Source: Beroe forskalii | Lineage: Eukaryota; Ctenophora; Nuda; Beroida; Beroidae | Assembly (NCBI GenBank): GCA_011033025.1 | Contig: WFMF01000616.1 | Span: 25,450 to 89,449, forward strand | Direction of reading: 5' to 3' | DNA: 64,000 nt | In this document: positions 21,091 to 51,558 of the stretch, piece by piece | Layout: every line of letters begins with the position of its first letter | How positions within the stretch are numbered: the stretch's first letter is position 1 | The notes under the pieces: model-generated | Databases searched by the model: none | What the model was told of the DNA's origin: nothing | The model's input: only the letters and a program-made list of their open reading frames with translations | Made by a program: the position numbers and the translations under genes

Positions 21091-21498
21091 CGCATATGTG
21101 TGCAGACCGCTCGATACGGAGGACTTGATAACCTTACATACTAACGGTGGCGTGTCGAACTCATATATGCGCGGCTTTTCGTGTTGCTAAACACGTATAT
21201 CCCTGTCTGCGTTGCGCGGCGCGCTTCCCCAGTGTGTCCCGTAGGGAAGCGCCGCGCGCGTACACACACCTATGCGGGCTTAGGAACTTTTCGTGTGCGG
21301 CTTACGCTGCCTGTAATTATAACAAAGGCAGCGAGCCGCGCATGGAAAAGCCGCGCACATATGAGTTCGACACGCCCCTGTAAGTTGTAACACTCGCGCG
21401 CCGCGCACAATTCTTTTATACGGTAACTAACTGCATAAAAGAGTTGTGTGCGCAAGTGTTAGTATGTACGGTTATCGAGCGATCTGCACACATATGCG
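21091..21498. mobile_element. GC-rich palindromic MITE (copy 1), probable TTA target duplication
   Basis: Terminal inverted repeats CGCATATGTGTGCAGA and TCTGCACACATATGCG (one mismatch) are flanked by TTA on both sides. Inside is a nested palindrome with CGCGGCTTTT, AAACACGTATATCCCTG, GCGCGGCGCGCTTCCC and GGGAAGCGCCGCGCGCG. The inner GC-rich module recurs at 47,680-47,895. No coding frame. Confidence 0.7.
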
Positions 21499-27393: not shown

Positions 27394-28096
27394 GAGTGGT
27401 CCAGGAGAGGACTGGAATCAGTATTGTGATACCTCCCACAACGGCAATATATCATTTCGGACTAGTAATCAAGTACTTATGACTGCATTGCTTTCCTGTA
27501 AAATCAGAGAGTCAGTATTCAACTCTTCATGCCTAGATCCAAAATTCATTACTTGACTTACTGTGAATGAAGATTGAAGAATGAATTCAGATTTGAAACT
27601 GCAGAGCCCCATTCTTATACCGAATGCGACCATCAGCAGAAAGTGACATAAAGTGAAGCAATAGCCGATAGAAAATAACCAAAAACATCAGCAAGTTGGT
27701 GTTACAATGATGTATGAACTCTGATGCTTTGATGCTTCACAGTACATAATCAAATGAAGTGAATCAAATGTATCAATGAATCAAGTCTATTAATGATTCA
27801 ATGAATTACTGAATAGGACATCGTACATTTTGTCTGTTGTAGTCATTGCGATAGCATATTTTCACCTTCCTTTCATTCTGATTATTCCCTATTGGTAGAT
27901 TTGGATCTTGTTCCCACTTTCCTTGAATTGAAATCTACTTTTGGGTATAAAATAGCTGTCTCAAAAAACTTAAATACATAATATGAAAATACTTATATAG
28001 ATGAAACACGTTGTGATGATGTTTTATCCTTGTATTTACAGATTAGCATCATGGGAAGTTAGGTTATGGAACGGGTAGCATCTCATGAATGTGTAG
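27394..28096. other. Spacer between MRGBP and WDR48
   Basis: AT-rich; no exon or repeat recognised. Should hold the WDR48 promoter. Confidence 0.4.
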
Positions 28097-31000
28097 ATGG
28101 CAAAAAAGAGGACAAGTGTTTCATATGTAATTAGAAACGACCATGGTGAGTGAATGTTGCTACTTTATACACCTAGGACACTCCACGAGTTGACACCAAT
28201 TCACCAAATGCACTTTGACACGAGTTCATCAAATACACTTTGACACCAGTTCATCAAATGGACTTTGACACCAGTTCACCAAATGCACTTTGACACCAGT
28301 TCATCAAATGTACTTTGACTCCAGTTCACTAAATGTACTTTGACACCAGTCCACTTAATGCCCTTTGACACCAGATTACTGACAACACCTTGACACCACT
28401 ATTTTACCCGCCACAGAACCACTACACAAGGGTGGTGTCAACGCACTGGTGATTGCAGAGCCACCTTCAGACTGTCTTTTCACTGCATGCAGAGATTCTC
28501 TGATCAGATCATGGAACTACAAGTCTAAAACAGTGAGTTAAAATAACGTGCATAGGAATAGAGGAAATAGAATTTTGAATTTTCAGGTTACTTGACTTTT
28601 TCACACTTCAAACTTGTTTATTACATAATTGCCGATACCTATCAATTAGTGCTTAATTTTCCCAAATCGTTTTTTAGTCTTACCCATTTACTGTAAAGTC
28701 TTTTCATTTCAGAACATCAACCTTATTGACACATATGAGCATCATAACGATTGGGTGAACTCTATCTTCTACACGGCCAGACACGACCTTTGTGAGTAAT
28801 GTTCCCAAGTGACTATGAATGCTTTAATGCATATTTTCATAAACAAACCATAGTACAGAGGTGCTGTACTCTGATCAGCTATGTTTGTTGTTATTAGTTT
28901 ATCGTTTATTAGTTTATTTAAAGTTGTTTACCAGTCAATATCGAACATAATTAACTCTAGCTATTGATATGATTCATGAAAAATGATAGTTGACACTGTT
29001 GATTTTCGCTCTGTTCCCATTAAATTTTGCTTCTAAAAATTTAAACCTCTCATTTCCTATTTTCAGTATTTTCGGGTTCATCTGACACTGGAGTCAAGAT
29101 ATGGGACGCTTCCAAAGGTTTTGTCAAGTCGTCGCTGCGAACGCACCGTGACTACGTTAAGAAACTCACGTACGCCCAAGAGAAAGACATATTCGCTTCA
29201 GGGGGCCTAGACAGGAAGATTTATGTGTGGGACGTGTGTACCTTGAAGTGCCTGACCGTCACCCACAACACTGTTTCGAGTAAGGATGTTCTTTAAATGT
29301 CAGAAATCGAAAATTTCCCAATTTCTCGTGAATTATTCAGTTTCTTACTCCAATTATCAATGTTTTTGAATAAATTCAGTGTTTTTTGAATGATTTGACT
29401 TTTAAAATGCAATACTTTCCCAGCTGCAATCTGCGAAGGACACAAAGACTCAATCTACAGTCTTGCTATATCACCGATGGGAACGCTTTTGGTCAGTAGC
29501 GGAACGGAAAACTTCATCAGAATGTGGGACCCACGGTCGTGTACCAAGATCGGAAAGTTAAAGGGTCACTCGGAAAACGTCAAAGCACTGGTTTTGAGCC
29601 CCGATGGCACACAAGTAAGTGAACGTTTTTGTAACGCGCGCGATGGTTTTTGTGATTGTTTCTGCGCGTCACGTATGTATTTGCGTGGTATTTTGTAGAT
29701 TCGAAGATGCATGAGGAGATATTTAATTTGTTAAATACCATGATTTGATTGTACTTCACGTATGAAGTGCAATTAAGGGATTCATGAAATTTTATTGGAT
29801 TGAATCTAGTGTGACAGGCCTCTATTGAATTTCATAATCCAAATGGCTGACTGAACAGTACTATGTGACAACTTGAGCGTAACCTATGTAGGGACATTTA
29901 AAAAGTTTAAAATACTTGAACATTTTTGGAGGTTTCCGTGATTATTAAATTGACTTGCATAAGCCTTCGATCGTTTGTTCCATTAAGAATATAAGGTTAC
30001 GTTTCATTTCAGCTATGCTTCCCGAATTCTAGATGGCTATTTAGCCATTCTATAATTATAACATTCACGCTACATTCGCTTCTCTCCAGGATTGAAGATG
30101 CAGTTGGCTTTGTGCCAAGCAACTGGTTCTTCCAGTGAACTATTCGAATCTAAACTGGAAGTTCAATTTCAGTGTATGCAATAAACGTGACCACAATATC
30201 TATGCATGAATATCGTATCTCGTTTCCCTTCGATCATGAAATTTAAACTCTTTAAAACCAGAGTTTAAATATGAATCGTCTATGAGTTTTTGAAGCAAAA
30301 TTTTAAACTTTCTAGATACTACAAACTTATGGAGGTCATCCAACAATGAATAATAACATGCATTTCATAGCCCCACGATCAAATGGCATTCACCGGATTC
30401 GATGAATCCGATAAGATAAAACACGTTTATATTGCGAGATATAGAGTTATTTTAACTATTTTAAATCCGTGCTTCACTAGATCAGGCACGTGAATGGTGT
30501 GTTGTTGAGTTTAGATTGAGTCTTGGAAGAAAGCTGGTGGAGGTACAGGTATAAGAATTCATAGTTAAAGAACTCTGCTAAAATGAGGAATGGTATTAAC
30601 ATTATATTCGCCTATAACAGGATTTTACCAAAATTATGACCTCCCTCAATTTCTCTGCAAAGGTGGCGGTTATGAAATTACGTTTAAGGGTTACAATACG
30701 AATGATTCAATGTCTGGAAGTGGATGAATTACTTTGGTGTAAGCTGATGGGTTTCTCTTATTTTGTGCATCAATTTGCACCTTCATGATTGAATGAATTC
30801 ATGCTTTCAAAAGACAGTAAACCACCTCAAATTCTTTCCATTGCTTCAGTTAACTACCCCGTTTTTATTGACTGCACCATTAACAATAACCCATATAACA
30901 TTAAGAAACTAGAAACTTGACTAACAAAGTAACCCACCCAATTCCAGCTTATCGTGACGTAACGCGTCACCTCATTCTGCACTTGTTGTAACTATAATCG

Positions 31001-31160
31001 TTACGTAAACTACGCCCGTATTTCAGCTGTTGTCAGGCAGTACGGACGGCTCGGTGAAGTTGTGGAGTATAGCCCAGCAGCGGTGTATAGCCACGTACCG
31101 GAACCACAGTCAGGGGGTGTGGAGTATTGCTGTCAACGAGGCGTGGAACAAGTTCTACAG
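28097..31160 (+). CDS. WDR48: WDR48/UAF1, 5' part (exons 1-6), separated from its 3' exons by an inversion
   Basis: Exons: 28097-28145, 28417-28532, 28713-28791, 29067-29279, 29424-29614, 31027-31160, totalling 260 codons plus two bases. WDR48 is the WD40 cofactor that activates the deubiquitinases USP1, USP12 and USP46. The start is fixed by [10 protein letters not shown], matching the human N-terminal VQVSYVIRDE. WD40 blades follow: [132 protein letters not shown]. The last exon ends FY plus AG at a good donor (CTACAG|GTAAAA). No continuation exists downstream on this strand. The next WDR48 exon, beginning C GGT GGC (SGGRES), lies on the minus strand at 51,558, phase-matched. Confidence 0.95.
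28175..28412. repeat. Minisatellite in WDR48 intron 1, unit about 26 bp (CAAATGCACTTTGACACCAGTTCAC)
   Basis: About eight copies. The core TTGACACCAGT is shared with the large minisatellite at 7.5-9.3 kb. The final degenerate unit (CTTGACACCACTATTTTACC) runs directly into the exon 2 acceptor CCACAG at 28,416, so the repeat lies within the polypyrimidine/branch region. Confidence 0.85.
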
Positions 31161-31567
31161 GTAAAACACTCGGCTTTTAGCCAGCCTTTTTCTATAACGG
31201 GTTCTTTTAATAATCGGCCTTTTTAAGAGGCCCTCTGGACAACAGTTGAATTATTTTTGAACCATTTAAACCTGGTTGGAATATCAAGGATTTCATGCTC
31301 TAAAATAACCACCAGAATCCGTTTATACTCAATGATTTGCATCTAAAGACCTAAATTCCGGTCTAATATGATGATTTAGGTCATTATATATGTTATATAA
31401 TGACATTGAAGTGAATTAAACACTGTATAAGCCAAGTAATGCGAGTTTCATTTGACCTAGATTAACTGGCATTCAGACTCCATTCAATTCAACCGCCGGT
31501 TGAATTGAATCAACCGGCCTTTGTGTCAAAAATCTCAAATGTCGACAACGGTTCCGATTTTAATAGT

Positions 31568-34500
31568 AAGATGGGACATCGCCATGATAGTTCATTGGGA
31601 GCTCTGATGTTTCTCACTGTTTTTTTTTTTTGCTTTTTCGCTACATAGAGCGTGCTATAAAATAATAAATTTGATGATCTAATGTCTGCTGGCCTAGATT
31701 AGCTCCCTAGAAACCGATTAAACGTCAAGAGTCCATTCGAATGTTTCATCTCTAATTGATAGCCGATAGGTCATGCTTGTGATTTGTGCTAGATTGTACT
31801 GCTTGCTCAATTCAAACAAACCACAAGGAAACATGATTTTAGTGCGACGATAAATATATAAATTTAATGGGATTTGTTGAACAGTCCCGCGTAAAATATT
31901 GAAATGTGATCAAAGATTAATTCCGTTTTGAATATGGCGATCTAAACCAAGTTTTTGACCTCATTCTGATTTGAATAATATTACAATATCAAGCAAACAT
32001 ACTGTTTAGGATGGTAAAACAAATCAGTTATCATTATAGACTACTGTTATATTTTCAATATTGATACCAAATCTTTCCTTTTTTTCATTTATCAAATTCA
32101 TAGTCTTTGATCGATCTACTAAATTAAATGCTGATTTAACCTCGGTGCACTTTTCATGATGTTTATTCAGATTTCATCCATTTTACATCAAAGTCTTGGT
32201 ATTTCAACTTGTATACGCTACTTTACTCGTCACTCAAGTCTCAAATTGGCGTCCTGTTACATTATAACAGGACTCCTTGATTAAGTTCAGTTTCCTCTGG
32301 GTTTTTGTCCTTCGCTTCAATGCAATGAACTTCGTATTATCGCATTACTTCAATTGAATTTGCTCTTCATTATAGCCTAAAGAACTGCGTTCATCTTGTT
32401 GCCTTCTCAATACACTTCGTTTCAATACAGTCTGAATGTCTGGGCTCAGGATGCCCCTCCCTTCCTTCTCAAACCCACCTTCTTCCCGGGCCTATTCCCG
32501 CCCTTAATATCCAAGTTACTATCAAACTTCTCCTTGGGTACGAGTCTCTTGAGCCTCTGAATGAAGTAGTCACTGCTGGGGTGCTTGTGCCGCTCCATCA
32601 CCGCTATCCATTGTCGGGCAAGTATCGGGTGCTTTCCCTTCATTAGAATATCTGCTAACTTCACCACCAGGTTCATGTATTGCTCGTTCTCCGGACCCCT
32701 GTTATCTGTGTAGAGTTTTAGGTGTTTCCCGGCCTCCTCCGCGTTCCGCTGATCGATGTAGCAGACCGCCAGCCGGAGATATGTCATGACTTTCTCCCCT
32801 CCCGGGCACTTCCGTAGTGCCTCGTGGAGGTAGAGAATAGCCAGGTCGATCTTGTGACAGATCACCAGGATTTCCGTGAGGAGGATTATTTGGGTAACCT
32901 CGGAGGGGTCGAGGAGACACGCCGATCTGATGTTATCGAACATGTCCGCTATCCGGGGATCAACGTCCCCCTCATCGTCTAAATTGGAGCTGGTCGCTGA
33001 GGTGGTCAGGAGTTCCGATCCCTTGGGTGATGTCGATCCCTTCACCATCATCGATCCCTTGGTTTTCCCCGACATTACACTAGCATTATCGATACTCCTC
33101 ACGGGCATTACCCGTGCTGAACTCACATGCTTGGTATCGTGCTGCGTTTCCTCGATCACCACTTGGCGCGATGTCGCCACCGTGTCTGTAGCTCCGTCTG
33201 AGGAGGAGAGAGGCGGCAACTCCGCCGCCTCCTCCAAGTCCTTCTCGTAGAGTCTCTTCTGGCAGAGCGCCAGGAGGTAGTGTGCCGGGGCGGAAGTGAA
33301 GGTCTGGAGACTCTTCTTGGTTTGTTCAACTGCTGCTTGGTGAAAGTCTAACTTGTACAGTTCCTTGGCGATCAGAAGTTTGATAAACGCGCACGGCGAA
33401 GCATCGCCTTTCCACTGCAGTTTTTCCTGAAGAATTGCGATCTTTTCGCGCCGCAAAAACGCAGCCTTCGTTTCAATGATCCACAGCAAGTCCTGAACGA
33501 ATGAAGTGTTGGGTCTGCACGTTAACACAAAGGCTAGTGATGACGTGTGATAAGACACATCTTCTGGCGTAAGATAGGATATCTTGTCTGAGGTATAGGA
33601 AAAGAAGCTGTAGTAAAACCGGGACATGAAACAGGTTGGGTTGATGTGCAGAGCGTTCGTCAGATGGTATTTCGTCGCTTGGCGTAACCCCGCGTAGAAG
33701 TAGAAGAACGCGATGTCTAGGTGAGCGAGAGCGATGTATTTCCGACTAACTGAGTGGTGTTCGCTCAGCCATTGTCCGAGTTTCCTGTCCAACTCCGACT
33801 TTTCTTCCGTGGCTCCGGCTTGTCCTGCTCGGTACGCCAGATCAGCAGTTGCTACGATATTGTGGGGGTCTAGTTTCAGTACTGTCCTGTAATACTTGGT
33901 AGATTCCGCGGCTGAATCCTTGAGATGGGCGATGTATCCGAGGAGATTCCACAGGGGAGTTTGGAAATCTGGCGGTATGGCGGGCAGTAGGAAGTTAATG
34001 TGATGGACGATGGACGTTATCTGATCTTCGGAAAGTGGGATGTCTATTCCGAAGTGGGAGGGGTAGCCGTGGAGTCCGGGAAACTTGTCCAGTTTAGGGG
34101 TTTTGGTGGAGAAGTGTTTGTCCTGGGGCGGTAGTTCGACTTCCAACATATTGTCTGTGTGCTGGGCAGATGTAATATTTATTAGCAATAAAATAACAGC
34201 GCGATTTGGCAAGCAAGTGGTAAGAAATGAAGAAATGGTAATATTTTCGCTCCTATATTTTATAGCCATTAGGCTATAGTGTCATAACGGGTTATAAATT
34301 TAAATACCTAAAATGAGATGGTACATATGGAGGTAAATTTGAAAGAGTGAAATAAAACGGTAGTCAGGGTGTGGTCGCAACATGTTCAATCGCTTTATGG
34401 TCGAAATTGCCCTTGGAAATTGGAAAAGTTACTAAGACGAAAAAAAGTGGGCAAATTCAAACAACCTGACGTTTTATATTCACGTTACACGTAAAACCAA

Positions 34501-36032
34501 TAATGCGTGGGTGAATCTGGCTCACATGTATTGCAAATTGCAAACAATTTTGGTCTCAACTGCATTAGCAGCCATCAGCTTTCATTTGCAAGCATCAGCC
34601 TATCGATCCATACATATTATGAAAGTGTTGCTTGAATCGATAAAATGGGCAATTTGAATCTTGGCTGTCATAATATCACCTATCATAGAACAAAAACAAT
34701 AATAAAAGCAAACTTCAAACAGAAACAGTTCATGATCACACGGGAAGATACACATTACACAACAGCTGTTGGACTGTTCAACACCAGAGAATGGACAAGG
34801 AAAAACTGCATAAAAATATTTTTTTAAAGTTTTTAAAAAACGAAAAAGAAAAACAAGCTACCCAAACCATATAAACAACAAATCGATGAAACATGAAATA
34901 AAAGTGAATATGTATCACTGACACCGTACCGTATACACAATGTCTATAACTCTCTAGTCTCACACAATCTCTTATATTCTACTGCTGCTACTGCTGCTTG
35001 TCTTTCTTTGCACGCGACCCTCACATCCACTTTCAAATCATTTTAAACATCTCCTCTTCTATCTCTTTCTCTCTTACATACACACATCATTACAACCATG
35101 TGGCATTATATATCAATATGTGTCCTGGTTTCATCATCCTAGAGAGTTTAAAAACCATGTCATATGGACCGGATTATCGTAATATCTTACGCCTATGTAA
35201 GCGCCGAATATCGGGCTCATTGTAAACCGTTTAATTAAGTAATTAGTCTGGAACATTCGACATTCAAATTGTATTCAACGTGCGGCCAAACGAGATTAAA
35301 TTGGAGTCATAAGAAACACTTAAACAAAACGGTATTATGTGCTTGTCGTATTCATACATAACAGATATTATTTGAGAGTGCCAAGTGGCATTCAATAAAC
35401 ACTTGTTCGTTTTGGCTGATATTATACGTGTTTGTAACAAAAGCGATGCATTTGAACTGCAAAACGAAAACAATGCATTACGAAATGAACAGCAAATCAA
35501 ACAAGTTTAATGGAAGTTTTGACAATGTAATGAATAACGCCATTGTTCTCGAGTGCTGCGCAATAAGTTGTCAGGATTAGCGACTGAATTTAGATCGACC
35601 GATCGGACTACAGTGATCCTTCAGCGATTAGTTTTAAAATGCAACTCGTGATGACCCTCGCATTGGCATTCGGCTGTATGGCGACAAAACTGATAACAGG
35701 ACTTTGAGATTAAATTTTATCTCTTCCTTGGAGGAAATTATGGCTATCATTTTTCAAATTTTTGCATGTACCAATTGCAGTTAATTCAATTACCGCTGCA
35801 ATACGCAAAACAAAACGCTCATGAATAATTGAATATTATTATTTTGTATAAGATTTATGAATGTATATTATCGTTTAAAAATTGCCGAAACATATTCTGT
35901 AGATTTTAAACCCAATGTTTAATAAAAAATGAATTTTATGCAAACAAGCTAGACAGGTGTTGAAATTTAAAACTTCTTTAACTAATATACTGAAAAATGA
36001 TTGATAAGTCAGAATTTTTCTTGCTACTTTCA
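31568..36032. repeat. Left arm of a large inverted duplication
   Basis: The sequence matches the reverse complement of 51,560-57,662, including the whole TPR gene body, its downstream flank (left 31,640-32,440 against right 56,800-57,600) and its upstream flank (left 34,730-36,030 against right 51,560-52,890). The outer boundary lies at GGGACATCGCC near 31,570 and the inner at CTTGCTACTTTCA near 36,030. Coding parts differ by scattered substitutions and flanks by more, so the copies are not identical. Confidence 0.93.
32446..34269 (-). CDS. TPR-rich protein, intact copy, nested antisense to the WDR48 intron
   Basis: A continuous frame of 607 residues from 34,269. The more likely protein start is the Met at 34,149-34,147 (MLEVELPPQDK), since the 40 residues before it look like untranslated or intron sequence and a CTGCCCAG acceptor-like site lies just upstream; this gives about 567 residues. 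Helical repeats are TPR-like: ESTKYYRTVLKLDPHNIVAT, ALAHLDIAFFYFYAGLRQAT, KYHLTNALHINPTCF and EILVICHKIDLAILYLHEAL. A Ser/Thr-rich linker with SMMVKGSTSPKGSELL separates the two repeat blocks, and the C terminus is basic (GGNRPGKKVGLRRKGGAS). Similar layouts occur in TTC- and IFIT-like TPR proteins, but I do not recognise an orthologue. A second, 5'-truncated copy lies in the other arm. Function unknown; a scaffold role is the usual one for TPR proteins. Confidence 0.8.
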   Translation of the reverse strand: MAIKYRSENITISSFLTTCLPNRAVILLLINITSAQHTDNMLEVELPPQDKHFSTKTPKLDKFPGLHGYPSHFGIDIPLSEDQITSIVHHINFLLPAIPPDFQTPLWNLLGYIAHLKDSAAESTKYYRTVLKLDPHNIVATADLAYRAGQAGATEEKSELDRKLGQWLSEHHSVSRKYIALAHLDIAFFYFYAGLRQATKYHLTNALHINPTCFMSRFYYSFFSYTSDKISYLTPEDVSYHTSSLAFVLTCRPNTSFVQDLLWIIETKAAFLRREKIAILQEKLQWKGDASPCAFIKLLIAKELYKLDFHQAAVEQTKKSLQTFTSAPAHYLLALCQKRLYEKDLEEAAELPPLSSSDGATDTVATSRQVVIEETQHDTKHVSSARVMPVRSIDNASVMSGKTKGSMMVKGSTSPKGSELLTTSATSSNLDDEGDVDPRIADMFDNIRSACLLDPSEVTQIILLTEILVICHKIDLAILYLHEALRKCPGGEKVMTYLRLAVCYIDQRNAEEAGKHLKLYTDNRGPENEQYMNLVVKLADILMKGKHPILARQWIAVMERHKHPSSDYFIQRLKRLVPKEKFDSNLDIKGGNRPGKKVGLRRKGGAS

Positions 36033-37564
36033 AAGTGTGGTTATAATCATATTAGGAAATTATAAAACATCAACTTTAATAGCCACGAACGAAAATCAGG
36101 CAGCTCATAATCATCAATTCACCAGTCTAAACAGTGATGATTTTGTCAGTCCCAATCGCCTATTTACTAGATTACAACTTCTGATACTATACCAATGATC
36201 GTAGGAGGTTTTCTTTGGCAAGCACGAAATGTCAGGTTAATTGGGAAAAACTCCCTCGCGTGATGAATTGAGATCGATTGGTAACGGACAACACCCAACG
36301 GATCAGAAGTCATGCGTGTGAGAGCATTCAGTCAGATGATTCTATCAGTCAAATTGAGCTAATTCTGGAATATGGTATTTCGTCTAATTGAAAGTGATGG
36401 TATTGGTGCTGGGTAGCATGATGTGCAATTGATTAGGAAGTTTTTAATCGCCATTTTCATCCCATATAAAGCAGGAAGGAAAATAGTCAACATACCTTTA
36501 TTGACACAGGCTTAACCATCCGATCCACCATAATATATTCCAATCATTGGACAATGCAACCGTTCCTGAAATAACATTGTTTAGCACAAATAACAATGCC
36601 GTGGATGTGATTAACGGCTCTACACTCTACAGTCTACCTGAGTTTCAGAGCACCATTTTGAAGACAAAACCCAAACCTTCAACTTCAGCTTCTTCATGAA
36701 TCAGCATTGTTTTAAGTTTAAACCGTAACAGTTTCAACTGAACTAAGTATTTATGTCAAGGAAAATGTTAACAATGCAGACAATTTAAACTAGGTATTCT
36801 GAATAAAATAACCTGAACTCACGCTATTTACAACAAAACTTCATCAATAAATCCCCAGCATTGTTTTCATAGTAAATCATTCAAGAAAAACTGATTGAGC
36901 AACCATAATCTGATCATTGTTCAAATGTTCAATGTGCCTTTGTTCAGAGATAGGTGCATATTATGACAGTGAAAACAAAGTTTTCACTGTCACCCAGATA
37001 CCGTTTTTTTCGGTCGATCTCGCCATGGCTCAAGAGCTCACTGCTGAACACTTTGGGGATTCGGAATCAAACCTAGAAATGTTGTAACCCTAGGAATCCT
37101 TCAACTTCAGCTGTTCCAACATGAAGCTTTTACAGAAGTTCCTTACTGGAGCCGATGAGGGAACGAAATGTCCTGAAATAGTGATAGTACTTGATTTCGT
37201 GAAATTTCAGGAGCTGCATGCACCAGCTTTCAAGCAGCTGTGACTTGTGATTGATCGTACTTTTTCTAACATCCTTATCCTGCGAGCGACGGGTACAGAG
37301 TAAAATAATCGATGGAAATTCGATTTCCTACGTACGGAAAGTTTCGTTCCGACAATGAAAATTTCAAGAATTCCAGGCCAGGTAATCGAATTCACTGTCC
37401 CCTACAAGACCCTTCACAGGCATATAATAAGCCACTCAAGTTGAATAACGTTTTTCATAAGCAAACAGTACCTACCTTCAATATTCCAGTAAATGAAACA
37501 GTGATATGATTAAAAAACACGGAAAAAAGATTAATAATTAATTAAAGAACCGGCTTTCTCAAGA
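36033..37564. other. Gene-free stretch inside the inverted interval
   Basis: Starts immediately after the left arm. No exon that continues WDR48 or OVCA2 is found on either strand; the AT-rich sequence includes short A/T runs only. A piece near 37,160-37,180 (GAACGAAATGTCC) repeats a motif of the last OVCA2 exon. Confidence 0.4.
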
Positions 37565-39354: not shown

Positions 39355-39926
39355 GTGACTGAATACTATCTTAATATTAACGGAACCAAATTAAACCATA
39401 TTCCTCAGACCAGAATAATCAGTGAGCTGGGAGGTCTTCAATTTTCAATAAATAGGGAAGAAATATCGACAAAAAGTGAAGCTCAAAGTTATCATTCAAA
39501 ATTTTAAAAGTAAAATATATTGCGTTATAACATATCCTAGAGTTCCATAAAACGATAAATAAGTAAATAGTCAAAATAATGTTCCCTTAAGCGTTCAAAT
39601 GGCTTTCAAACTTGTGACTGATGATCAAAAAATAGCCATAGGAATATGGCAATTTCACGATTCGTCATTTGAATAAATACTCAAGTCATGGAAAGATGGA
39701 ATACTGATCATAGAGCGGCTAAATCTAAAATCTGTGCGCTAGTCCTTGAAACGTAACTCGCTGTGGTGTAGTGTCAAACTCACGTAAGGATAAACTGTAT
39801 CAATTCGAGTCTAGAAATCTTGGTGCAATAAATAGTGTTCGTATAGTGTATGAACAGAACAATCAATATATCAATTTACTGAGTAAGAAGTGTCCAATTA
39901 ACATTGATAAAAAGAATATATGAATA

Positions 39927-42504
39927 TCAAAATAGCAACGGAGCAATGGTTCCTTGCTGCTTGCGGCCAGGCCAACTTTCTTTTGCGTACTTTTTCCTCT
40001 TGGGCTCTGAATCATCTGCTTCTGCGAAAGTTGTAAATTTGAAATATGCTGCAGCATCCATAAAACAGACACTCGAGGATTTGTTAAAAAGGAAATAATA
40101 TGGTTATCCCTGATCGGTTATTGCTGCAAACTGCGATCACTGATTATGCGTTGATCATAAATAATTCACCAGGGGGTCACCATGGGGTCAGTAGCGGGTC
40201 ACTTAGGGTTCACCAGGGGAACCAGGGGGTCAGTTAGGGTTCACCAGGGGGTCAGTAGGGGTTCACCAGGGGGTCAGTAGGGGGTCAGTAGGGGGTCATT
40301 GGAATACTTTCATACGACCCATTCGTTCACTATGTACAATGTACATACCTGTTCTAGTGAATGGTTCTGGTACTACTGGTGCCACCGTTACCGATAAGTC
40401 CAGCGGTTCTGGAGCACTGTTAACCACAGGTAAATAGCTGCAAAATCAAACGTTTATTATCAAGGTTGATGAACAGGGTTTATGAACTTGGAACTCTGGA
40501 ATACTAGTGTCGTACGTAATTGAAAAACCGAGAATTAAGTTATAAGAAATGGAACAGTTGGGGCTTGGACTTGATAAATTTGAACAATTTTTTACGATCG
40601 AGAGAAAGAACTAAGAAGTAACCTTGCGGTTTGCTTAGTGGGGGTTTTGGTAGGCGATGTTAGGGGCATGTTGTTTGGAACACCGTCCTTCTGTTGCTGG
40701 CCTCGGGAACTGTCGTACAGCGTGGAGGTGGGCGTGGGCATCTGAATACGTACTCGTATTTAATATGGAACAAACAAGATTCACTAAATAATATGCTCAA
40801 TCGGCTTGAATATAGATCAGTGAAAAGTAGCTTTCATCAATCATTCATGGTCAATTTGACGTTTATTCAGCAATCAAGTTTAATCCTTATTCCTATGCAG
40901 TCATTGAGCATTTAGGAATCATCGATATGTCTACACATCAAAAGGTAGGGGTGGGCATCGTGTTGGTGACAGGAACTACAATGGAAGTCGCTATCATGTT
41001 CCTAAATCTCCCAATGCTCGGATCCACGTCCTCCGGGTTTATGACATCCGTTTCCTCGTTAAAGGATATCCGCCCGGAGCTGCTCTGCCGGCGGGTTTTG
41101 GGTTGTTCTGTCTTGTCGCCCGCCGTCGCTATGACAACCCGCTTGTTGTGCGCCGTGTTGAATTCGGTCAAGTCATCCAACTCTTTCTCATTCTCAATAC
41201 CTGCCGAGAATGGAATGCTAAATGAGTAAATCGTATTTTAAGTTGAAACGGCAAATTTTAGTCAAACTTTAAAGAGAAACTTTAAAGAGATATAAATGAA
41301 GTTACCAAAAACTGATAAGACTTGTGAAATGCAGTAATAATCAGGAGATGCCTCCCTCCCTGAACTAACCCAGCAATTCCTGGAGCTGCTTATTCTCGCC
41401 CTGGATCGAGTAGAGCGCCTGAGTGCCCTGAGGACGCTCCCTCAAGGTGTACGTCCGGGAGGACGCCCCGAAGTGGACGGACTGATCCACCAGCATCTGC
41501 TTAGGGGTGTGCGGATCTAGCTTGATGGAGCCGATAAAGGAGCCGTGAGCTGGAAAAGAGGTTTTGGTTTAATATGGCTCAGTATAGGTAGGCCCAAATT
41601 TGACAAATAATATTCCTTTCAAGCATTTACCTAAACCGTGTTAACTAAAATAAAGGCAGTGAATCGATCAAACGTCCTTGTAACGTTGGAGCTTGATTTG
41701 GGCTACGACAAAAAGTGTACCTCACCAAGAAGATAAACCAATTTAAGATTTTAGATTCAACAGTTACTGTAATATTCTATTTAATCAACTAGGTGAAAAG
41801 GTAATTTAACAGATGAATTAAAACTTACTGCTTTTTAAATCGATAATGAAGGAGCGTTTCAGAACTTTGTGATAAACGAGGGCAGCATGGTATCGGCTGG
41901 CAGATCCGTGATCTATCGGGACGTCAACAACGTCAGCGTTGCGACCTGGTAATACAGCGTTTCTAGGGTATCAGAATGGAACTAAATATAATGTGGTTTG
42001 ATGTTCAAGCTCAAACAATTATGAGCTAAAGCACTTTATAAAACCGTATCAATTAGCATATTCCTTCTGTGATCGCTAGAGATTCCAAATCACATTTTAT
42101 CATGATTCTAAAAAACGCACATTGAAAACATTCATTGTCACTGGAAGTGGCATACCAAAGAGATAGTAAGGTTTTTCATCTATCATCTTCTTCTCGATGA
42201 GTTTTTCATTCTTGTGAACATCCAAATGCAAGCCAGGAGGGGGCTTCCCGATCCTGAATGAATGTTTCAAACATTCAATATTTAGTATTCATTGCGGGAA
42301 TGAAATACAATATACATTTGAGCCAATGCCCTAACTAGTGTAACCACTATGATCTACAATTTATAGTGTGAGAGATCAAAGGATCCCGTTTGATAAAAAG
42401 CAAGTTCACCAGTCAGGAGGAGTAAAAGCTTTGGCTCTTTCAGCTTCCTTATCAAACTTTCGCTTAGGGGCAGTTCTAGTTCTGTTTCTTGGGGCAGGTT
42501 GCAT
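39927..42504 (-). CDS. PPP1R8: NIPP1, nuclear inhibitor of protein phosphatase 1, eight exons
   Basis: Exons in transcript order: 42504-42410, 42253-42156, 41945-41829, 41549-41370, 41200 to about 40980, 40741-40623, 40437-40349, 40021-39927. NIPP1 binds and retargets PP1 in the nucleus and links it to splicing factors and EZH2. The FHA domain is clear: WIGKPPPGLHLDV, EKKMIDEKPYYLFGRN, VPIDHGSASRYHAALVYH (phosphothreonine-binding Arg/Ser region), FIIDLKSTHGSFIGSIKL. The PP1-docking region is conserved: DDLTEFNTAHNKRV, then a basic RRQSSSGRISFNE containing the RVxF-type RISF, and the strongly conserved INPEDVDPSIGRFRNM. The C terminus EPKRKKYAKESWPGRK matches the human end. All junction phases agree except that the donor of exon 5 is unclear: the conserved IVVPV runs past the best GT (40,979) and the next exon repeats ATGCCCAC. 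The N terminus is a basic extension absent from the human protein. Confidence 0.93.
40165..40302. repeat. Minisatellite in the last PPP1R8 intron (AGGGGGTCAGTAGGGGTTCACC)
   Basis: Seven or so degenerate units of 13-22 bp made of GGGGTCAGTAGG and GGTTCACCAGG, ending in three near-identical GGGGGTCAGTA blocks. Confidence 0.8.
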
Positions 42505-43242
42505 TTTCGCTTTGCTAGTCTTATCAAATACCTACATCATTACATCCTCAAATATCCGTTATGCAGTAAGAACTTCACTTTTATTCGTTACTTAGAATTA
42601 GATTTTAACGAATAAAATTTATTTTCAAATTGCATCTGATTCCATGTAGTTTCAAAAAAACCTTAAAAATTTTGGTAACTAAAAGTTCGCCTGATGTTAA
42701 TGAATCAATAAAACAAGGTTATTATTCATTATCATGAATGCAGATTATCTTAATTATGTAAAAAAGGAAATAAACTTCGAATTCGTCATAGTCTTATCAT
42801 GACGTGATGATCATAAATTACTACTATAATTATTAATTATGCATTTTTAAAAACGAGATTGTATTATACCAAAACATGCCATTCTAATTACAGCATAGAC
42901 AAAGAAATAAACTAATAAATTGTTATACACATCTATAGACATAAAATAAATACATTCGTTTTCATATCAAGACAAGGAACCCAAAGTGTTTAAGTGAACA
43001 ATATGGTATGCTAGCCGAATGTTAGCTATTTGGTTATATAATGTTTTTGATCCATTTCAAAAGCAATTACTGTTACATGCTTTGAAAGAAAACATACCTT
43101 GATAATTATCTTAGTGACATTTATAACTCACATGGAAAGATAAAGCGCACTTTAAATGAAGTGCTGCCTAATCTCAATCCATATAAATCAATTATCAAAT
43201 AAAATCGCGAAAATTACAATATAAGAACCATTCTGTATAAAT
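42505..43242. other. Spacer between TPX2-like and PPP1R8 genes
   Basis: Very AT-rich. Serves as the 3' region of the TPX2-like gene and the upstream region of PPP1R8, both on the minus strand. No other feature seen. Confidence 0.4.
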
Positions 43243-45325
43243 TCATTTCTTCAGAGGCCTCACTTTAGGTCTTGAAGGCGAACCCAAATGAAGTGATACC
43301 TGTTTCCCAGTCTTCAAAGTTTTACCAGGTATCTTATTAGGGCATGATTTTGCCTGTATTTTGGCATTATGTTTTTTAAGTTGGGCAGTAATGAACGAAT
43401 CAAGATCATCATCGTTTTCTGAAAGCAGTTCGTCTCTATGGTGTGGCGAAGGTGTTTCGACAGAATATCTGGGCTTTACTTCTTTTGATTTACATTTAGA
43501 AGGCGACTTTGCATTGATTATGGATAAGACACTGCTACTAGCACTGAAATTACTTGATGATTTGTTGTTTTGAATTTGACTCAAAGTTTTTCTTGAAGTT
43601 ACACCTTTTTTGAGCTGAGAAGAAACTGATGGAGTTCTTCTGTTGAGAGTGAATGTTGATGCAGATGATGGTTTGGGAACAGCTGCTACGTTTTTACCAC
43701 ACTTCACAGTACTTTTCACTGATACAAAGTCTTTTTTGCATGCTGATGCTCCATTAGTACTTCTAAACCTATTTTGAACTTTACCTTGAACTTTATTTTT
43801 ATCCACCACACGTTTTGACTCAGTAAGATGCGTCGAATTTGTTTTTTCGTCAATAGCCTTTTGCTTTACTGCTCTACTGTTTTGAACTTTTTGAGATGTT
43901 ATGGATGGAATAGAAGCAGATTTGTCATCATCTCTATGATGTGAAGAGGGAACACCATCTGAAGATGTTTCTTTCGAAGAATCAGGGGGATGGTCTTTAG
44001 CTAAACCATTGACTTTGTAACTATCTGGCTTTGTAGCCAATAACTGAGTCCTTCTCCTCAGAGATGCATCTTTACTTAAAGTTTTCACTGACGTTTTCTG
44101 GTTACAAATCGGAGGAGCCATACTTTTCCTATTTCGGCAAACCACACCTGCTAAATTGTTACTTCGAGAGAAAGTTTTTACACTATTCGATTCAGTGGTA
44201 TTTTCTGCAATAGGTGAATCTAATTTACCTGCACATTTGATACTTGTATTTGTTGAAAGAAGAACACTCTTTCTTTGGTTGATTGCTGAATTTGAGGATT
44301 TGGATTCATCAACAGCAGTACTTCCAGAAAAAGATTTGAGATTATCCAAATCTCCAACATCTCTTGTATTAGGTGAATGTAATTTACCAGGGTATTTGCA
44401 ATTCATATTTGCTGGAATAAGAACGCTCCTTCTGGGATTAGTTGCTGTTTTTGAGGTGAGATGCAAGGGCTTGGATCCAGCAACTGTAGTCTCTGTTTTT
44501 GGAAGGACACTTCTTCTAGGGTTTGGCATAGGTCTTGCTGATAAACGAGCAGCTTTATGTTCCTTATTACTATTAGTGAGTTCAGTTTTAGCATTTGATT
44601 TATTAACTGCTGGTTTTAAGCTTTGTATCTTTTTGTTGTGAGCTCGCAACATTTCCGTAATTTCATCTTCACTAGAAGAAAATTCTATTTTTTGTGGCTT
44701 GGGTGCATTGTTTTTTGCATGGAATCGTTTTTTCACGTTAGGGGTATTCTCAATTTCATTGCATTGCAATGTATTTCTGATATCCTTAGCCTCTAATGCA
44801 ATAACACTGGCTGGAGTTTTAAGATGAGGCTGTAGAGACGCAAACCACTGAACATCATCTGCCCTGGAAAACGGGTTGATACACAGCAATATAATAGTGG
44901 CAAAACTTAAACCTAATAATCTTCGAAGTAACATAAAAAGGGAAAGCCTGGAAAAATGTTCCCTACAACCAAAATAGCTTTTAGGGGTATAGTAAATTGC
45001 TAATATTGTAACCCAGGTGTCTCAACCTTTTGAGGCGCGTATTACACTGCGCCTGGGTGCTTTTTTGCTGCACGTGACAGCAAGCAAAGTCCTTTCAATG
45101 CAACACATTTAAAAAGCACCCAAGCCTGGCGTAATAGTGTAATATGCCGTGCCTGAAAAGGTCGAAACATCACGGTATTGCTTATGGTTTGAATTTCAGT
45201 TAATTATGATAAAGCTACATAGATTACCTAGGTCTGTAGTCTTCTTCCTCAAAATCGATCCACTGAGGACAATCTATCTTCTCAAAATCGAATAAATCTT
45301 CTTCATTTCCATCATCCATAATCAT
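43243..45325 (-). CDS. TPX2-like spindle protein (short form), two exons
   Basis: Exons 45325-45228 and 44863-43243, joined AG|G, give 572 residues. The N terminus reads EEDLFDFEKIDCPQWIDFEE, then after a short acidic linker DDVQWFASL. This has the spacing of the Aurora-A-activating region of TPX2 (FDAP..FINF...DSWF in vertebrates). The rest is low-complexity, Ser/Lys-rich and very basic, with repeated (N)PRRSVLxP-type motifs and two copies of an (L/M)(L/K)xxHNxKIQ element near residues 95 and 545. Such features fit a microtubule-binding spindle assembly factor regulated by importin alpha. The classic C-terminal TPX2 domain (KLEE..EL..) is not present, so this would be a reduced version or a TPX2-domain relative. 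The in-intron Met that would add a hydrophobic leader (MLLRRLLGLSFA) is intron read-through. Assignment is tentative. Confidence 0.5.
45013..45172. mobile_element. Small MITE in the TPX2-like intron
   Basis: An inverted repeat: CAACCTTTTGAGGCGCGTAT and GCGCCTGGGTGCTTTTT on the left face AAAAAGCACCCAAGCCTGGCG and GCCGTGCCTGAAAAGGTCG on the right, with about 50 bp in the centre. No coding capacity. Confidence 0.65.
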
Positions 45326-45905
45326 ATATGTCTACTATGAAATTGAAATTATGGCTGATATGGGCTGCTAAAATCTGAAGTTATCTTATGAATGCAGAAT
45401 GAATAATTGATTATCAACAATCATTGAACATTGGAATGAAAAATTTCAAGCATGAATATCTAACAGTCATTTTAAGCTATGAGAATCAATAAAAATTTTC
45501 TGGAATAAATTATTTCACTTATAACAATGAGTAAATCTTATCAATGCCATGAGATTTCATCATTAATGATGATCACACATACCAAGTTAGTTAGTTGAAC
45601 ATTGAATAAGCTTACTAGATCCATAATTGAGTCTCAAATCAGTGCTCCTCACACCTTTAAATTGGAATACATTTACTGTAATTGAAACATGTTTAGATTG
45701 TGACATCTATCAAAATCGATTTTTGTGCTTATTCTCATTAATCTAGGAATTTACAGAGTGTGAAAAACAGTTTTATACAAATGCATTTTAACTATCAAGC
45801 ATAGATTTATTAAAGATATCTACTTTCCACCAATCAATGTTTCTATGTTAATATGCCTTAATGTAATTACCCAATCTAAATCAGGTTGATACACAAAAAT
45901 TGACT

Positions 45906-46446
45906 TCAATGATCATGATGAGCTTTATCAGCAAATTCTCTGAGCTGGTTCTTCTCATAGTGAAATTCAGTTGGGTCAACATATTTTCCAGGGTGATCCA
46001 ATTCTCCAAATATTTCTTTGTACTTGTGTCGCAGTGGCTCTGGAAATTCATATGATCTTCTAACCTCTTCACTTGGGAATTCATCGTAACTTACCATGTA
46101 ATTTCTTGCCAAGAATTCAGAGACAACCATTGACCCAATGAGAACAATTGCTGCCTGTTTCACAGGTGCCCTGAAGATTATGATCATTAAGACAATAAAA
46201 AATGTGATTAAGTAGCCCTTGAAATGCTGTAGGCAATGCAAGAATTACAAAGAACTCAATGGTAAGCAACTTATTTTGAGAAATTGATTTATTTTTGTAA
46301 ATCCATTTTATCATTGATAAATCAGCAACGATAGTAAGCCATTAAGTATCACACCATCTACTCTTGACTGGGTCAGGCTTGTACCAGAATGATCCCCAAA
46401 TTGATTGGAAAAAGTAAGGGTATCTCTGTCTTGGCATTGGACCCAT
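45906..46446 (-). CDS. Small membrane protein, two exons, family not recognised
   Basis: Exon 2 (46226-45906) encodes a hydrophobic stretch YLITFFIVLMIIIFRAPVKQ and a second weaker one (AAIVLIGSMVVSEFLA), followed by a charged tail rich in Glu, His and Tyr ending FADKAHHDH. A first exon starting at 46,446 encodes MGPMPRQRYPYFFQSIWGSF, then WYKPDP. The exon 1 donor is uncertain: only CCA|GTCAAG at 46,369 gives the right phase. Size, a single strong membrane span and an aromatic N terminus are like small accessory subunits of mitochondrial respiratory complexes, but that is a guess from shape only. Confidence 0.5.
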
Positions 46447-47679
46447 TATAACTTATCCTCCTAGAAATTGTTACTGATTAATTTGAGGTAAAATGGAAAC
46501 TAGAAAAATTGTTTTTAAAACTTAGAATCATTGACACAAATTGAATTATTAATAACTCTTAGATAACAACTCAATTATTAAATTAAAGAGGCCCTGAACC
46601 AGCTTTCCTAAAAGTGCATTTTCTTGGCCAGTTTTTATGAAATAACTGGTAGTTCTTACAGTCAATTGTGTACTGTGGACCCATCTCAGCCCCTTTTCTG
46701 TAAACGAATATACAGCCAGGGAGGTCAATTATTTATTTATTTCTTCTAAATAAATATACACACAATGTGTCACCTTCGAAAACTTATTAATTTACAATAA
46801 CTTAATAATCTAAAATCATCTAAAATACCTAAATGAACTAACACTGTGACACACAGGTCAACTGAGATTAAGTATACATTGGGACATAACACAACACCAA
46901 AATGATAGTAGGCATAATCAATGCCCAAGTAGGAGACTCATCATTATTCAATGTTGGCTCCAGTATCTTCAAGAGCCAAATAAATAAATAAATAAATAAA
47001 TGAATCTAAAGTGGCAGAGCCAGCCTCTTGTTGTAGGCCTCTTGTTGTAGAGCCAACAATACAAAATACTCTGCATTGGCATCTTTCCTGTAGTAATTCC
47101 CTTTGACTTCCCCTTGATTCCTGAATCATCAATCAAGAGACCAAACACACAAAAGCAAGTCTCAATTATCAAAGAAATGATTAGTTATTCAAATCATGAA
47201 GAAAAGGCAAGGATAAGCATTTTCAGGACAGATTCAGTCGAGGCAGCATTAAATTTATTTCTTGGATCGGTGGTGTCTTCACCGATGTTTCGGAATAATT
47301 CTGACTGTCATGTCCACCACTTTGATGTCGATTTTAATCATTCAATCTCCCTGCATTAACATAGAGTTTTTTCTCTTTTGGTCGTGTAAATGTTATCCTA
47401 CCTTCGCGCGCGGCGCAACGTTCCACATTTGGACGTCACTTTGCGCTCTAGTTTTTCCCTAACCAGCGGTGTCGCGAAACGACACTGGTTTGGACATGGA
47501 GCAAGGCGCGGCTAGCCCTAACCAGCGCCCTGGTTTCGCGCACGGAGCTGAGTGCGCGGCGCCCCTGGTTAGGGGAAGGCGCGGCGCGCGTGTAAAACTA
47601 GGGATCTGGTTAGAGCAACGCTCCAGTCAAAAGAAATAGACGGGCAACGTCTGTCGATAATTGTTCAACTTCCTATTAA
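46447..47679. other. Spacer with AT-rich and GC-rich patches
   Basis: Contains an (AAATA)n-type microsatellite near 46,977-47,002 and, from about 47,405 to 47,610, a GC-rich block with many GCGC and CGCG words and a repeated CTGGTTAG / CCTAACCAGCG motif. No exon supported. Confidence 0.4.
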
Positions 47680-47895
47680 GCCCGCATAGGTGTGTGTACG
47701 CGCGCGGCGCTTCCCTACGAGGAAGCGCCGCGCGATTTGCTAAACACGTATATCCCTGTGTGCGTTGCGCCGCGCGGCGCGCTTCCTCAGCACAGTGTGT
47801 ACTGTTCCGTAGGGAAGCGCGGCGCGCGTACGCACACCTATGCGGGCTTAGGAACCGCGCGACGATAACAGGGGTATACGTGTTTAGCAATTGTT
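47680..47895. mobile_element. GC-rich palindromic MITE module (copy 2)
   Basis: Shares with 21,170-21,290 the words AAACACGTATATCCCTG, GCGTTGCGC, GCGCGGCGCGCTTCC, GGGAAGCGC and CACACCTATGCGGGCTTAGGA. It is itself an imperfect palindrome: AAGCCCGCATAGGTGTGTG on the left, CGCACACCTATGCGGGCTT on the right. The outer CGCATATGTG ends of copy 1 are not present. Confidence 0.7.
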
Positions 47896-48346
47896 TAACA
47901 AATAGCAATATTATGGCCGTTATATTACATGCAATGATTCGCTGCACTTCATATCTTCAACTTCAAGAGTCAACATTTGCATTCATGATTCAACGAACAT
48001 AACAATGAAAAAGCGAAATATCGTTGATCTACAAAGTGATATCATATATTTTGATGAGACGAATTGAAATACAACATGAACATCAACAAGTAACATAGCA
48101 ATACCACATGGCAATTGGCAAAACCACAGTTGAATCAAAATTGGCCAGTCTATTTTCTAAAACTAAAAGGTATGATTCATCCATCATTGCCGCAAGAGCC
48201 AATAATATAAATTTAAACGTTAAACGATATCGTCTGATAACATTCACAATATTGAGTTTGAATAAGAATATGTATCGACAAGGACGCCCAATGTCACCTA
48301 CACTTACAGAAAATCTTAATCACGTTCTTCAGCAATAAATTTGGTC

Positions 48347-48589
48347 AGTCTCCCATATAAACGGGAGCCTTCATTATCTATGACAATGACGTCACTCAGA
48401 AAAATATAATTAAGCGCATCTAGCGCTTTCAGCAGTAAGGTTAGGGTTCTGGTTAGGGCCAGGATTTGTTAGGTTTAGGATAAGGATTAAGGTTAGGGTT
48501 TTGGTTAGGGCAATGGTTAGGTTTAGGATACAGAAAAATTGACGTTTAGATCTGTGACGTCACTCAGAGCCGTTTATATGGGAGACATA
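48347..48589 (+). mobile_element. MITE with GTCTCCCATATAAACGG ends and TTAGGG-like interior
   Basis: Terminal inverted repeats GTCTCCCATATAAACGG and CCGTTTATATGGGAGAC are nearly perfect; TGACGTCACTCAGA is repeated near both ends. The interior has GGTTAGGGTTCTGGTTAGGG-like degenerate telomere-type repeats. A diverged reverse copy lies at 22,132-22,331. Confidence 0.8.
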
Positions 48590-49083
48590 CCATAAATTTC
48601 AACATTTACTATTATTGGATTCGATATTGGAAAGGATATTTCAATTCACGTGAAACTGCTTTAAATTGGGTATGATATAAGGAATATGGCGTGACATAAC
48701 ATTAACACGTTTTAATTTTAAATGATTACCGAATGAGTCTTCACCAAGATAAAAGCTTTGTAGCCTTACTTTAAAGTGTAAAGAATATCAAATTAAAAGA
48801 TTTAAGTCAGTTTAATTTAAAATGAGAGAATATAAAGTTAGTCCGTTACTTTAAATTTAATAATACTCAGTTATGTGTCAGGCAGATTTAATCACTTAAC
48901 ATATCGATCCTGAATAATCATAATACTGTCCAACTCTAGTTCAGTAATTCGAACCTCTGCTTTGATTCCTCAAATAATGATAAATACACAATCACCGCAA
49001 CTTATACAGCAACCTCGCCGGGAGATAGTGGTATGAAATTATAGACTAGGGATAGTAACCGACTAAACACAGACTACACAACC
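48590..49083. other. Spacer downstream of WDR48 3' end
   Basis: AT-rich; holds the WDR48 3' UTR on the minus strand. Nothing else recognised. Confidence 0.4.
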
Positions 49084-51558
49084 TCACGTTACGAGGTACA
49101 TTAACCTAAGATCTGACCCACTTTTCCAGATGGCGTGTTTTACCGTCCGTAGGTCCATGCCGGGCTCCAGCCTCTGTTTGTTACAGAAAATAACGATATC
49201 TGAGGGTGTCGGGTTGGGTCCCTCCTGGGGCCCCAGGATCTTGTCTCCCACGTACTCGATAACCTTGGAAATAGCTAGGAAATCGTTGGCAGACAGACGG
49301 CCCTCCCGGGATTTGGGTGGCGGATCTTCTGCGTAGGGCTCGATGTAGAAGGCTATCTTGGTGAACTTGGGCATCTCGTGTTTGACCCTGAGATCGTAGA
49401 CCCATCCCGGGATCAGCTCCTCCAGAATGCGACCATCGCAGGGGTTGCCGGTCTCGTCCACCTTGATGCGGAAGAGAGTACGGCCGCAGCCGTCACTCCC
49501 CTCTACTAATGCGAAGGGGGTGTGGGGCGGGAGGGCGCACTGCTTGCTGTACAGTGCGCGGCACTCCTGCTCACTCTCGTCGTTAACTGGGGAGAGAGAG
49601 AGGGGTTTAGTGGGGGAAAGGACGGTTTAACTGGGGAGGACGGTTTAACAGGGGGAGGATGTCTTAACAGAGGGAGAAGGACAGTTTAACTGGGGAGAAG
49701 GGCGCTTTATCAAAACTATCAGCTCAAATGCCAAATACCGGAGATGCCATGCCATTCGGTTCAAATTATCCGGCCTTTGATTCAACCGGCTGCAATTTAG
49801 CCAGCCTTTTTGACCGGGCATTGATTCGGTTAAAAGTGAATTTGGTCCTTCAGAGCCGATTAAATAGAGAGCTGGTATGATATGAGCATTGAGCACCAAA
49901 CGCATGAAGTTGTGAACACGAGAATTATATTTTTTGCGCCGCTTCCACAAATTGAAGTATTGGTAACCATGGTATCGGGGAAGATAAAATGCAAAGAATT
50001 TGAAAAGTCCTGCTTCAGGGCTCGTTCTAAATTCAGTGAATTGCCATTTAATTTGTTATGTTTCACGTCACCACAGTAACTAAACATACATCTTCCTATC
50101 CCTATCTTAAACCTAAATTTAGCCTCCTATGAGAGCTTTGAAACTCGACACTTCTATAAAATAACCACAGCCACTTCCACATTTACTGCGCTTGGAATAG
50201 GTAGCCACTGGAAAGTAATCAATTCTCCATTCTAACCCCTGATAATGACGTCACTCTACTAAACAACCCTGGATCACCCGGGTGTTTGAGTACCTGTTTC
50301 ACTGCAGACCCAGTTCTGAAGGAGAGCCTGGATGACCAGTCCGCCGTAGTTAATCTTGTTGTCACTGTTGGTGTCAATGTCGTCCTTGACACAGACCCAC
50401 GCCGCGTAGCATTCCCCCTCGTCCAGGTGGATTGTCAACATCTGGAGGAGGGTTTGGAGTGAATTATAGGAATTTGTTGAGAGTTGGAATGTTTTTTAAG
50501 CTTCAGGAATTTGGCGACTGCGAATGTTCATCAACTTGAATAAAACCAAAACATTTTCGATAAAATCCACCCTCCAAAGCACATTTCATGCTTGAACCAT
50601 TCCCCCGAACTCACCCCCGTTTTGACATCCGCACTGAACCAGTTAGGAATGTACTCCCTCCTGTTCCGTGACTCTATCTCTTCCTTCAGATCGATCTTAC
50701 CCAACTCCTCGATTAGCTTAGCTCGCAGTACGTCGTACAGGAAACCGTTACCGAGACTATCCGTGCAGATCACATGCTGCTTGTCGGAGAGAATGTAGGC
50801 TTTCTTTAGGCCCTCGCCACCTGCGAGATTAAGATGGTTTAGGAGATTAAGATGGAATTAAGATGGGTGAGGAGATTTAGATGGATCATTTAGATGGATT
50901 ATATAGATGGGTTAGGAGAGAAAAGTAAAGGCACGGTATGAAGAGAATATGATCGAGGGTGTGAGAGGAATTGAGATATAGAGATAAGAATAAAAGGAGA
51001 TGAAATAGGGGATGGGAATGACTATAACTAAAAATTAGAAAGTATACTGTTATAGAGATAAGATTCACATTCAAAACAGCGCATTATAACCCTACCTTTG
51101 ATAGTAGCAGACGGGGCAGCCACCTGTGGTTTATCTATCATGCAGTGCGATGAGCGAGAGTGAGGTATCTGCCACTTGTTTACTGAGGTTTTAGTGGTTC
51201 CTATCCACAGCGCGTTACTGTCGTTGTCAATCACTATCTGGTAATATGATGGGTGTCACAAACAGAAGTCAAGGAAAAAATAGAGTGTTTGGTTTTTAAA
51301 ACTCTGCAGGATTTCAAATAAGAAATTTCCTTGCATTTTTCAAGGGTGGGCAACTGCAGTGTCCATATTGCATCGAATAAATGCACGTCCGTCGTCCATC
51401 TCCTTAGTCAGTAGTATTGGTTACAATTTTTCAAATTAAGAGCATAATAAAAGAGTTGGAATACACTTACATCGAGGATACTCCCAGTTTCCTTTAACAG
51501 CAAAGAACTTTCTGCAATTTTCAGATCTGATTCGAATAGGGTACTTTCTCTGCCACCG
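49084..51558 (-). CDS. WDR48: WDR48/UAF1, 3' part (exons 7-11), on the opposite strand to its 5' part
   Basis: Exons in transcript order: 51558-51471, 51237-51096, 50820-50615, 50441-50294, 49586-49084. Exon 7 starts with C completing AGC (Ser) from the plus-strand exon ending at 31,160: FYS then [11 protein letters not shown], aligned with human VYSGGRDRKIYCTD. Downstream matches are strong: [107 protein letters not shown] and the SUMO-like C-terminal domain ending with [20 protein letters not shown]. Together with exons 1-6 this makes 622 residues (human 677) with all eleven exons in phase and no damage. There is no start for this half alone, so in the order shown it should not give UAF1. 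Confidence 0.95.
49600..49710. repeat. Minisatellite in the last WDR48 intron (AGGACGGTTTAACTGGGG)
   Basis: Five degenerate units of about 20-25 bp with core GGTTTAACTGGGGAG. Lies immediately upstream of the exon 11 acceptor on the minus strand. Confidence 0.75.

Follow-up and report, generated by a model that had tools for sequence, protein, structure and literature searches.

WDR48 divided between opposite strands at a long inverted repeat with a nested TPR-like gene in Beroe forskalii

How does a gene that carries no disabling change come to have its two halves on opposite strands? The gene is WDR48 (UAF1), in a 64,000-nucleotide stretch of the ctenophore Beroe forskalii (assembly GCA_011033025.1, contig WFMF01000616.1, positions 25,450 to 89,449; here termed the window, its first letter being position 1). 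An initial annotation of this DNA had assigned exons 1-6 to the plus strand (28,097-31,160) and exons 7-11 to the minus strand (51,558-49,084), and when we rebuilt the 11 exons from the window we found the same strand split. A likely cause, absent from that annotation, is a long inverted repeat, carrying a nested antisense TPR-like gene, on either side of the interval whose reversal would rejoin the gene. We tentatively favour a real and recent inversion between the inverted arms on the sequenced chromosome, and weigh it below against the alternatives.

The divided WDR48 gene

The two halves, with exon limits in order of transcription, are:
28097-31160, plus strand: WDR48 exons 1-6, codons 1 to about 260 (28097-28145, 28417-28532, 28713-28791, 29067-29279, 29424-29614, 31027-31160)
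49084-51558, minus strand: WDR48 exons 7-11, the last ending in the stop codon (51471-51558, 51096-51237, 50615-50820, 50294-50441, 49084-49586)

Joined, they give a coding sequence of 1869 nt, that is 622 codons and a stop, with no internal stop or frameshift; GT-AG ends and agreeing phases occur in all 10 introns, including intron 6, which crosses the strands. The claim that a flip restores an undamaged 622-residue WDR48 with every junction in phase is thereby upheld. The junction of exons 6 and 7 had been said to read FYSGGR as in the human protein; YSGGR is indeed shared, but the human residues are VYSGGR, with V where F stands here. The positions offered as limits of the flip, 36.0 and 51.6 kb, are actually the inner ends of the inverted repeat (36,032 and 51,560) rather than mapped breaks.

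The identity of the gene is clear from near full-length similarity, although it does not form a single contiguous transcription unit on one strand. In a phmmer search of PDB chains the product matched human WDR48 with an E value of 5.4e-175, over residues 3-620 of 622 (chain 31-692), and the best 10 of the 60 matches listed were all WDR48. With the model as tblastn query, 11 of 11 exons were recovered from the window at the positions given above; no second copy of any exon was found there (other matches had E values of 0.003 or worse), though diverged copies of the shortest exons could escape such a search. None of the 41 pattern matches that WDR48 gave in genome contigs was a relative, which says little because that collection is not one of animal genomes, and a literature search of limited coverage turned up no link between WDR48 and an inversion breakpoint.

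The split cuts the single WD40 domain, so the separate halves are unlikely to function. The initial annotation had gone on to speak of a broken essential deubiquitinase cofactor. This was too strong: essentiality is known to us from mice only, in which the relevant part of one report describes UAF1 loss as early embryonic lethal (PMC6599204), and a second set of minus-strand exons 1-6 could lie past the window end. As a separate observation, WDR48 intron 1 contains a 25-bp minisatellite at 28190-28374 (TTGACACCAGTTCACCAAATGCACT, 7.4 copies), and a similar GACACCAGT core recurs in a minisatellite at 7616-9244.

The inverted-repeat arms and their nested gene

The exons 7-11 segment, the arms that bracket it and the features within those arms are:
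31556-36032, plus strand: inverted-repeat arm A (4.5 kb), within what remains of WDR48 intron 6
51560-57677, minus strand: inverted-repeat arm B (6.1 kb), inner end at the exon-7 splice acceptor
36033-51559, no strand assigned: unique interval in flipped orientation, its recognised genes all on the minus strand
34900-35670, no strand assigned: least diverged block of arm A, against about 52,702-51,927 of arm B, a candidate exchange or conversion tract
32449-34281, minus strand: TPR-like copy A, a 611-codon open frame with no intron needed within it
55299-56786, plus strand: TPR-like copy B, 496 codons, differing from copy A at 1 residue
52891-55298, no strand assigned: fold-back transposon-like insert in arm B, replacing 784 bp of arm A (33,937-34,720)

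Self-comparison of the window shows that the arms, 15.5 kb apart, form a long imperfect inverted repeat (31,556-36,032 against 57,677-51,560; 93% identity in aligned parts). It aligns in two portions, an outer one (31,556-33,936 with 57,677-55,299) and an inner one (34,721-36,032 with 52,890-51,560), each at 93%. Each arm holds an intronless TPR-like reading frame which, once WDR48 is rejoined, is antisense to it and lies in its intron 6.

The two TPR-like copies (32449-33936 and 55299-56786) differ at 66 of 1488 nucleotides; 65 of these differences are synonymous and one is nonsynonymous, altering 1 of 496 residues (synonymous divergence Ks 0.22 and nonsynonymous divergence Ka 0.0009 over 496 codons). 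The silent changes are scattered along the frame, its serine-rich, low-complexity linker included. Such near-silent divergence argues that strong selection acted on the two copies during most of the time since they separated.

A ratio of 65 silent changes to one is what alleles of one constrained gene would show and is unusual for redundant paralogues. It therefore also suits an explanation in which the contig joins two copies or haplotypes back to back: the minus-strand half would be a second WDR48 allele or copy with its exons 1-6 beyond 64 kb, the arms would be two haplotypes of one intron 6, and the only false or new junction would be 36,032/36,033. One junction would then suffice, with no ancestral repeat pair, and the upstream exons could hide past the right end of the window, which is repeat-rich beyond arm B and stops 12.4 kb upstream of exon 7, inside a transposon-like element. 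However, alleles would have to be very divergent to reach a Ks of 0.22, the window would offer no exons 7-11 for the plus-strand half, and to the right of arm B it contains neither an exon 6 (tblastn) nor a counterpart of 31,161-31,555 (blastn). We regard such a join as improbable.

The TPR repeats of the nested gene's predicted protein are weakly recognised, their Pfam matches falling below cut-off. A PDB search gave IFIT1 as a weak match only (E about 0.1), and no HAP40 chain occurred among the 23 PDB sequences matching at E values up to 1, which gives no sign of kinship with F8A/HAP40. Single-sequence structure prediction from the ATG at 34,146 gave a mean pLDDT (predicted local distance difference test score) of 36.8, too poor to use. 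None of five pattern matches to copy A in viral contigs was a relative, which again says little, since these are not animal genomes.

In copy B the counterpart of copy A's first 115 codons is replaced by the insert, into which the frame continues open (578 codons); copy B may be either broken or provided with a new N-terminus. The insert, of 2.4 kb, has inverted repeats of 421 bp close to both ends and tandem units of 171-173 bp, and by its look is probably a fold-back transposon. Its ends read TACAGTCAAA..., with CTAG on both sides. The 96% complementary arms reported by the repeat-finder start 17 and 11 bases inside the outer limits, and the ends are only 20% alike when compared base by base from those limits with no shift. 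A Pfam scan of its three forward frames gave no family above cut-off and two matches below it.

Divergence between the arms is uneven. The block at 34,900-35,670 shows 7 substitutions in 769 columns (0.9%) and two indels, against 33 in 500 columns (6.6%) for the remaining inner arm (Fisher 2e-8) and 61 in 777 columns (7.9%) for the outer noncoding arm (Fisher 3e-12); the block limits were picked post hoc, with the data already seen. When the inner-arm substitutions were permuted, a 700-column stretch equally low in divergence arose in 0 of 5000 trials, and the observed substitution-free run of 309 columns was matched in 3 of 5000. The longest exact match between the arms, 245 bp, falls inside the block and is the only exact stretch above 200 bp. 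The block is a plausible trace of recent exchange or conversion.

Age and possible origin of the split

At about 0.11 per lineage, the divergence of the arms, a WDR48 dead for the whole of that time should have taken about 29 disabling hits, indels included at an assumed rate of 0.12 per substitution; none is seen. The chance of no hit is 0.07 at 1% neutral change and 0.005 at 2%, or 0.32 and 0.10, respectively, when indels are ignored. By these assumed rates, neutral change since the split can have reached only some 1% per lineage (about 2.6% without indels). Old arms (Ks 0.22) and an undamaged WDR48 together leave three readings: a split far younger than the arms, an artefact, or a split that does no harm or is bypassed. 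The lack of disabling change also supports the initial annotation's three-way reading, that the gene was still whole a very short time ago, or is whole on another haplotype, or that the assembly has the interval the wrong way round.

Inverted arms at both ends of the flipped interval, a WDR48 that the flip restores undamaged, and recognised genes whose directions the flip would bring into line point to inversion through the arms. The starting state would have had WDR48 exons 1-11 on one strand and the intronless TPR-like gene antisense within an intron 6 of roughly 4.9 kb (the restored length if the exchange fell within the low-divergence block); some 15.5 kb beyond would have stood a second copy of this intron block, inverted. 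Recombination between these homologous blocks would then turn round the segment that they enclose and leave exons 7-11 on the other strand. Although the exchange point could be anywhere in the arms, it would most likely lie at 34.9-35.7 kb and 51.9-52.7 kb. Because neither half of WDR48 has decayed, the event would be young, or would segregate against an intact allele.

A possible objection is that the exchange took place in the assembler rather than in the DNA, the 15.5-kb unique interval having been reversed by way of the arms although WDR48 is whole on the chromosome. An assembly graph offers two valid routes through DNA that lies between inverted repeats, and these arms share the 245-bp exact match and the 0.9%-diverged block; WDR48 shows no decay; and a flip would leave the recognised neighbouring genes tidily co-directional. 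Against this, accurate long reads would easily distinguish arms that are 93% alike with a 245-bp exact match. Such reads are suggested by the frameshift-free WDR48 and TPR copy A and by the window's freedom from any N even where it crosses perfect inverted repeats of 372 and 312 bp. The arms moreover differ by 0.9% within the block, whereas a collapsed consensus would be identical. Assembled sequence alone does not separate a real inversion from mis-orientation, which we judge rather unlikely.

Several points weigh against the inversion as well. Arms at 93%, with a single exact stretch above 200 bp, are weak substrates for ectopic recombination. TPR copies under such constraint resemble alleles more than redundant paralogues, and conservation of an element upstream of the TPR gene could account for the low divergence of the block. 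The case is built on the assembled sequence of one contig. Finally, the inversion model leaves to chance where the homology ends: its inner end is the exon-7 acceptor itself, arm A ending TTTCA and arm B TTTCAG followed by exon 7 (36015-36040 and 51545-51570). None of the explanations considered here, a retrocopy of the intron apart, predicts this, and our own post hoc estimate of a chance coincidence is of the order of 0.1-1%.

Two other origins for the arms were considered. A 5'-truncated retrocopy of the excised intron 6 would fit the boundary, yet no target-site duplication was found; the two flank stretches compared (46 and 81 bases) share no word of at least 6 bases. Terminal repeats of one large transposon are rejected, since the interior contains WDR48's own exons.

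For the favoured inversion, the closest working model is the factor VIII gene (F8), whose intron-22 inversion is anatomically of the same kind. As described in part of one account, an intronless gene, F8A, lies antisense in the F8 intron, inverted copies lie outside the gene, and exchange flips the DNA between; the repeat, int22h, is 9.5 kb long and its extragenic copies are about 500 kb from the F8 start (PMC3211038). As far as that description goes, both loci have a host gene in two opposite halves and a flipped segment bracketed by an intronic repeat block and an inverted extragenic copy, and in both the block carries an intronless gene antisense to its host, here predicted from the open frame. 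The int22h arms are nearly identical. Ours, in contrast, are about 4.5 and 6.1 kb long, 15.5 kb apart and 93% alike overall, with divergence as low as 0.9% in one 769-column block only, and the unrearranged allele is here a predicted one. If real, the Beroe rearrangement would give the haemophilia A inversion a natural counterpart, the inverted duplication of a nested gene making its host gene breakable; if it is an artefact, it shows nested inverted copies splitting gene models in assemblies.

The remaining explanations turn on a WDR48 that still works. Transcripts of the two halves could be trans-spliced, as in Drosophila mod(mdg4), where opposite-strand exons are thought likely, in the relevant part of the source, to stem from small inversions (PMC4528330). 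There, as here, exons of one coding sequence lie on both strands; mod(mdg4), as that part presents it, swaps alternative 3' ends, whereas here a single WD40 domain is cut, in a case known from DNA. In favour of trans-splicing, every splice site and the frame are kept in both halves with no decay. Youth or artefact explains the missing decay equally, and the halves of a cut WD40 domain are unlikely to work alone; we consider a living split gene very unlikely. Just as unlikely, in our estimate, is its extension to an old, fixed inversion, with WDR48 surviving as a trans-spliced housekeeping WD40 protein encoded on both strands; this would account for two undecayed halves in spite of bracketing arms at Ks 0.22.

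Staggered breaks offer yet another origin, in which the inversion itself creates the arms. In Drosophila subobscura such inversions carry inverted duplications at their breakpoints, according to the portion of the study concerned (PMC5080602). Here too the arms are in inverted orientation, one at each end of the flipped segment. A staggered break would make them no older than the inversion and so predict the disabling hits that are missing; with Ks at 0.22 the duplication must long predate the break if the split gene no longer works, and only if WDR48 stayed functional does this origin survive. It seems to us the most doubtful of all.

For another ctenophore, Hormiphora californensis, part of one report describes a compact, highly heterozygous genome with genes nested in introns and with heterozygous inversions (PMC8527503). 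The likeness lies in nested genes together with inversion (within an individual there) in a compact animal genome. Unlike the case here, those inversions are about 2 Mb and, in the same portion of the report, apparently break between genes (PMC8527503). A search of the window that allowed up to three mismatches gave no match to the Hormiphora leader sequence.

Gene direction and surroundings

Pfam was applied in six frames to 36,033-49,083, 57,678-64,000 and 19,700-28,096, and to 10 chosen open reading frames; five of the latter, four plus and one minus, made up the coverage of 1-19,700. Among the matches were:
547-1086, plus strand: SDR
3,104-3,811, plus strand: TENA/THI-4
24.2-25.6 kb, plus strand: Tom37/GST, a gene which we take to be metaxin-like
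26.4 kb, plus strand: EAF7-like
37.6-38.0 kb, minus strand: FSH1-like, in the flipped interval, presumably an OVCA2-like gene
41824-41946, minus strand: weak FHA-domain match below cut-off, in the flipped interval

No Pfam family reached an E value of 0.01 in the minus frames of 19.7-28.1 kb, and none was found in the three plus frames of the flipped interval (36,033-49,083). The recognised genes left of the interval are all plus, a partial claim since 1-19.7 kb was sampled by five open reading frames only, and those inside it are minus, so a flip would make them co-directional. Upstream of the weak FHA match and on the same strand is a 592-codon frame (43246-45021, minus) with no Pfam family.

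A probable transposon occupies 58383-64000 and runs past the window end. It contains the perfect inverted repeats mentioned above (60577-60948 with 63174-63545, 372 bp; 58831-59142 with 63542-63853, 312 bp) as well as tandem units of 192 bp; a frame of 274 codons in it shows one C2H2-like finger, which falls below the Pfam cut-off. In the left part of the window, a metazoan signal recognition particle (SRP) RNA gene lies on the plus strand at 16650-16947 (Rfam RF00017, 232 bits).

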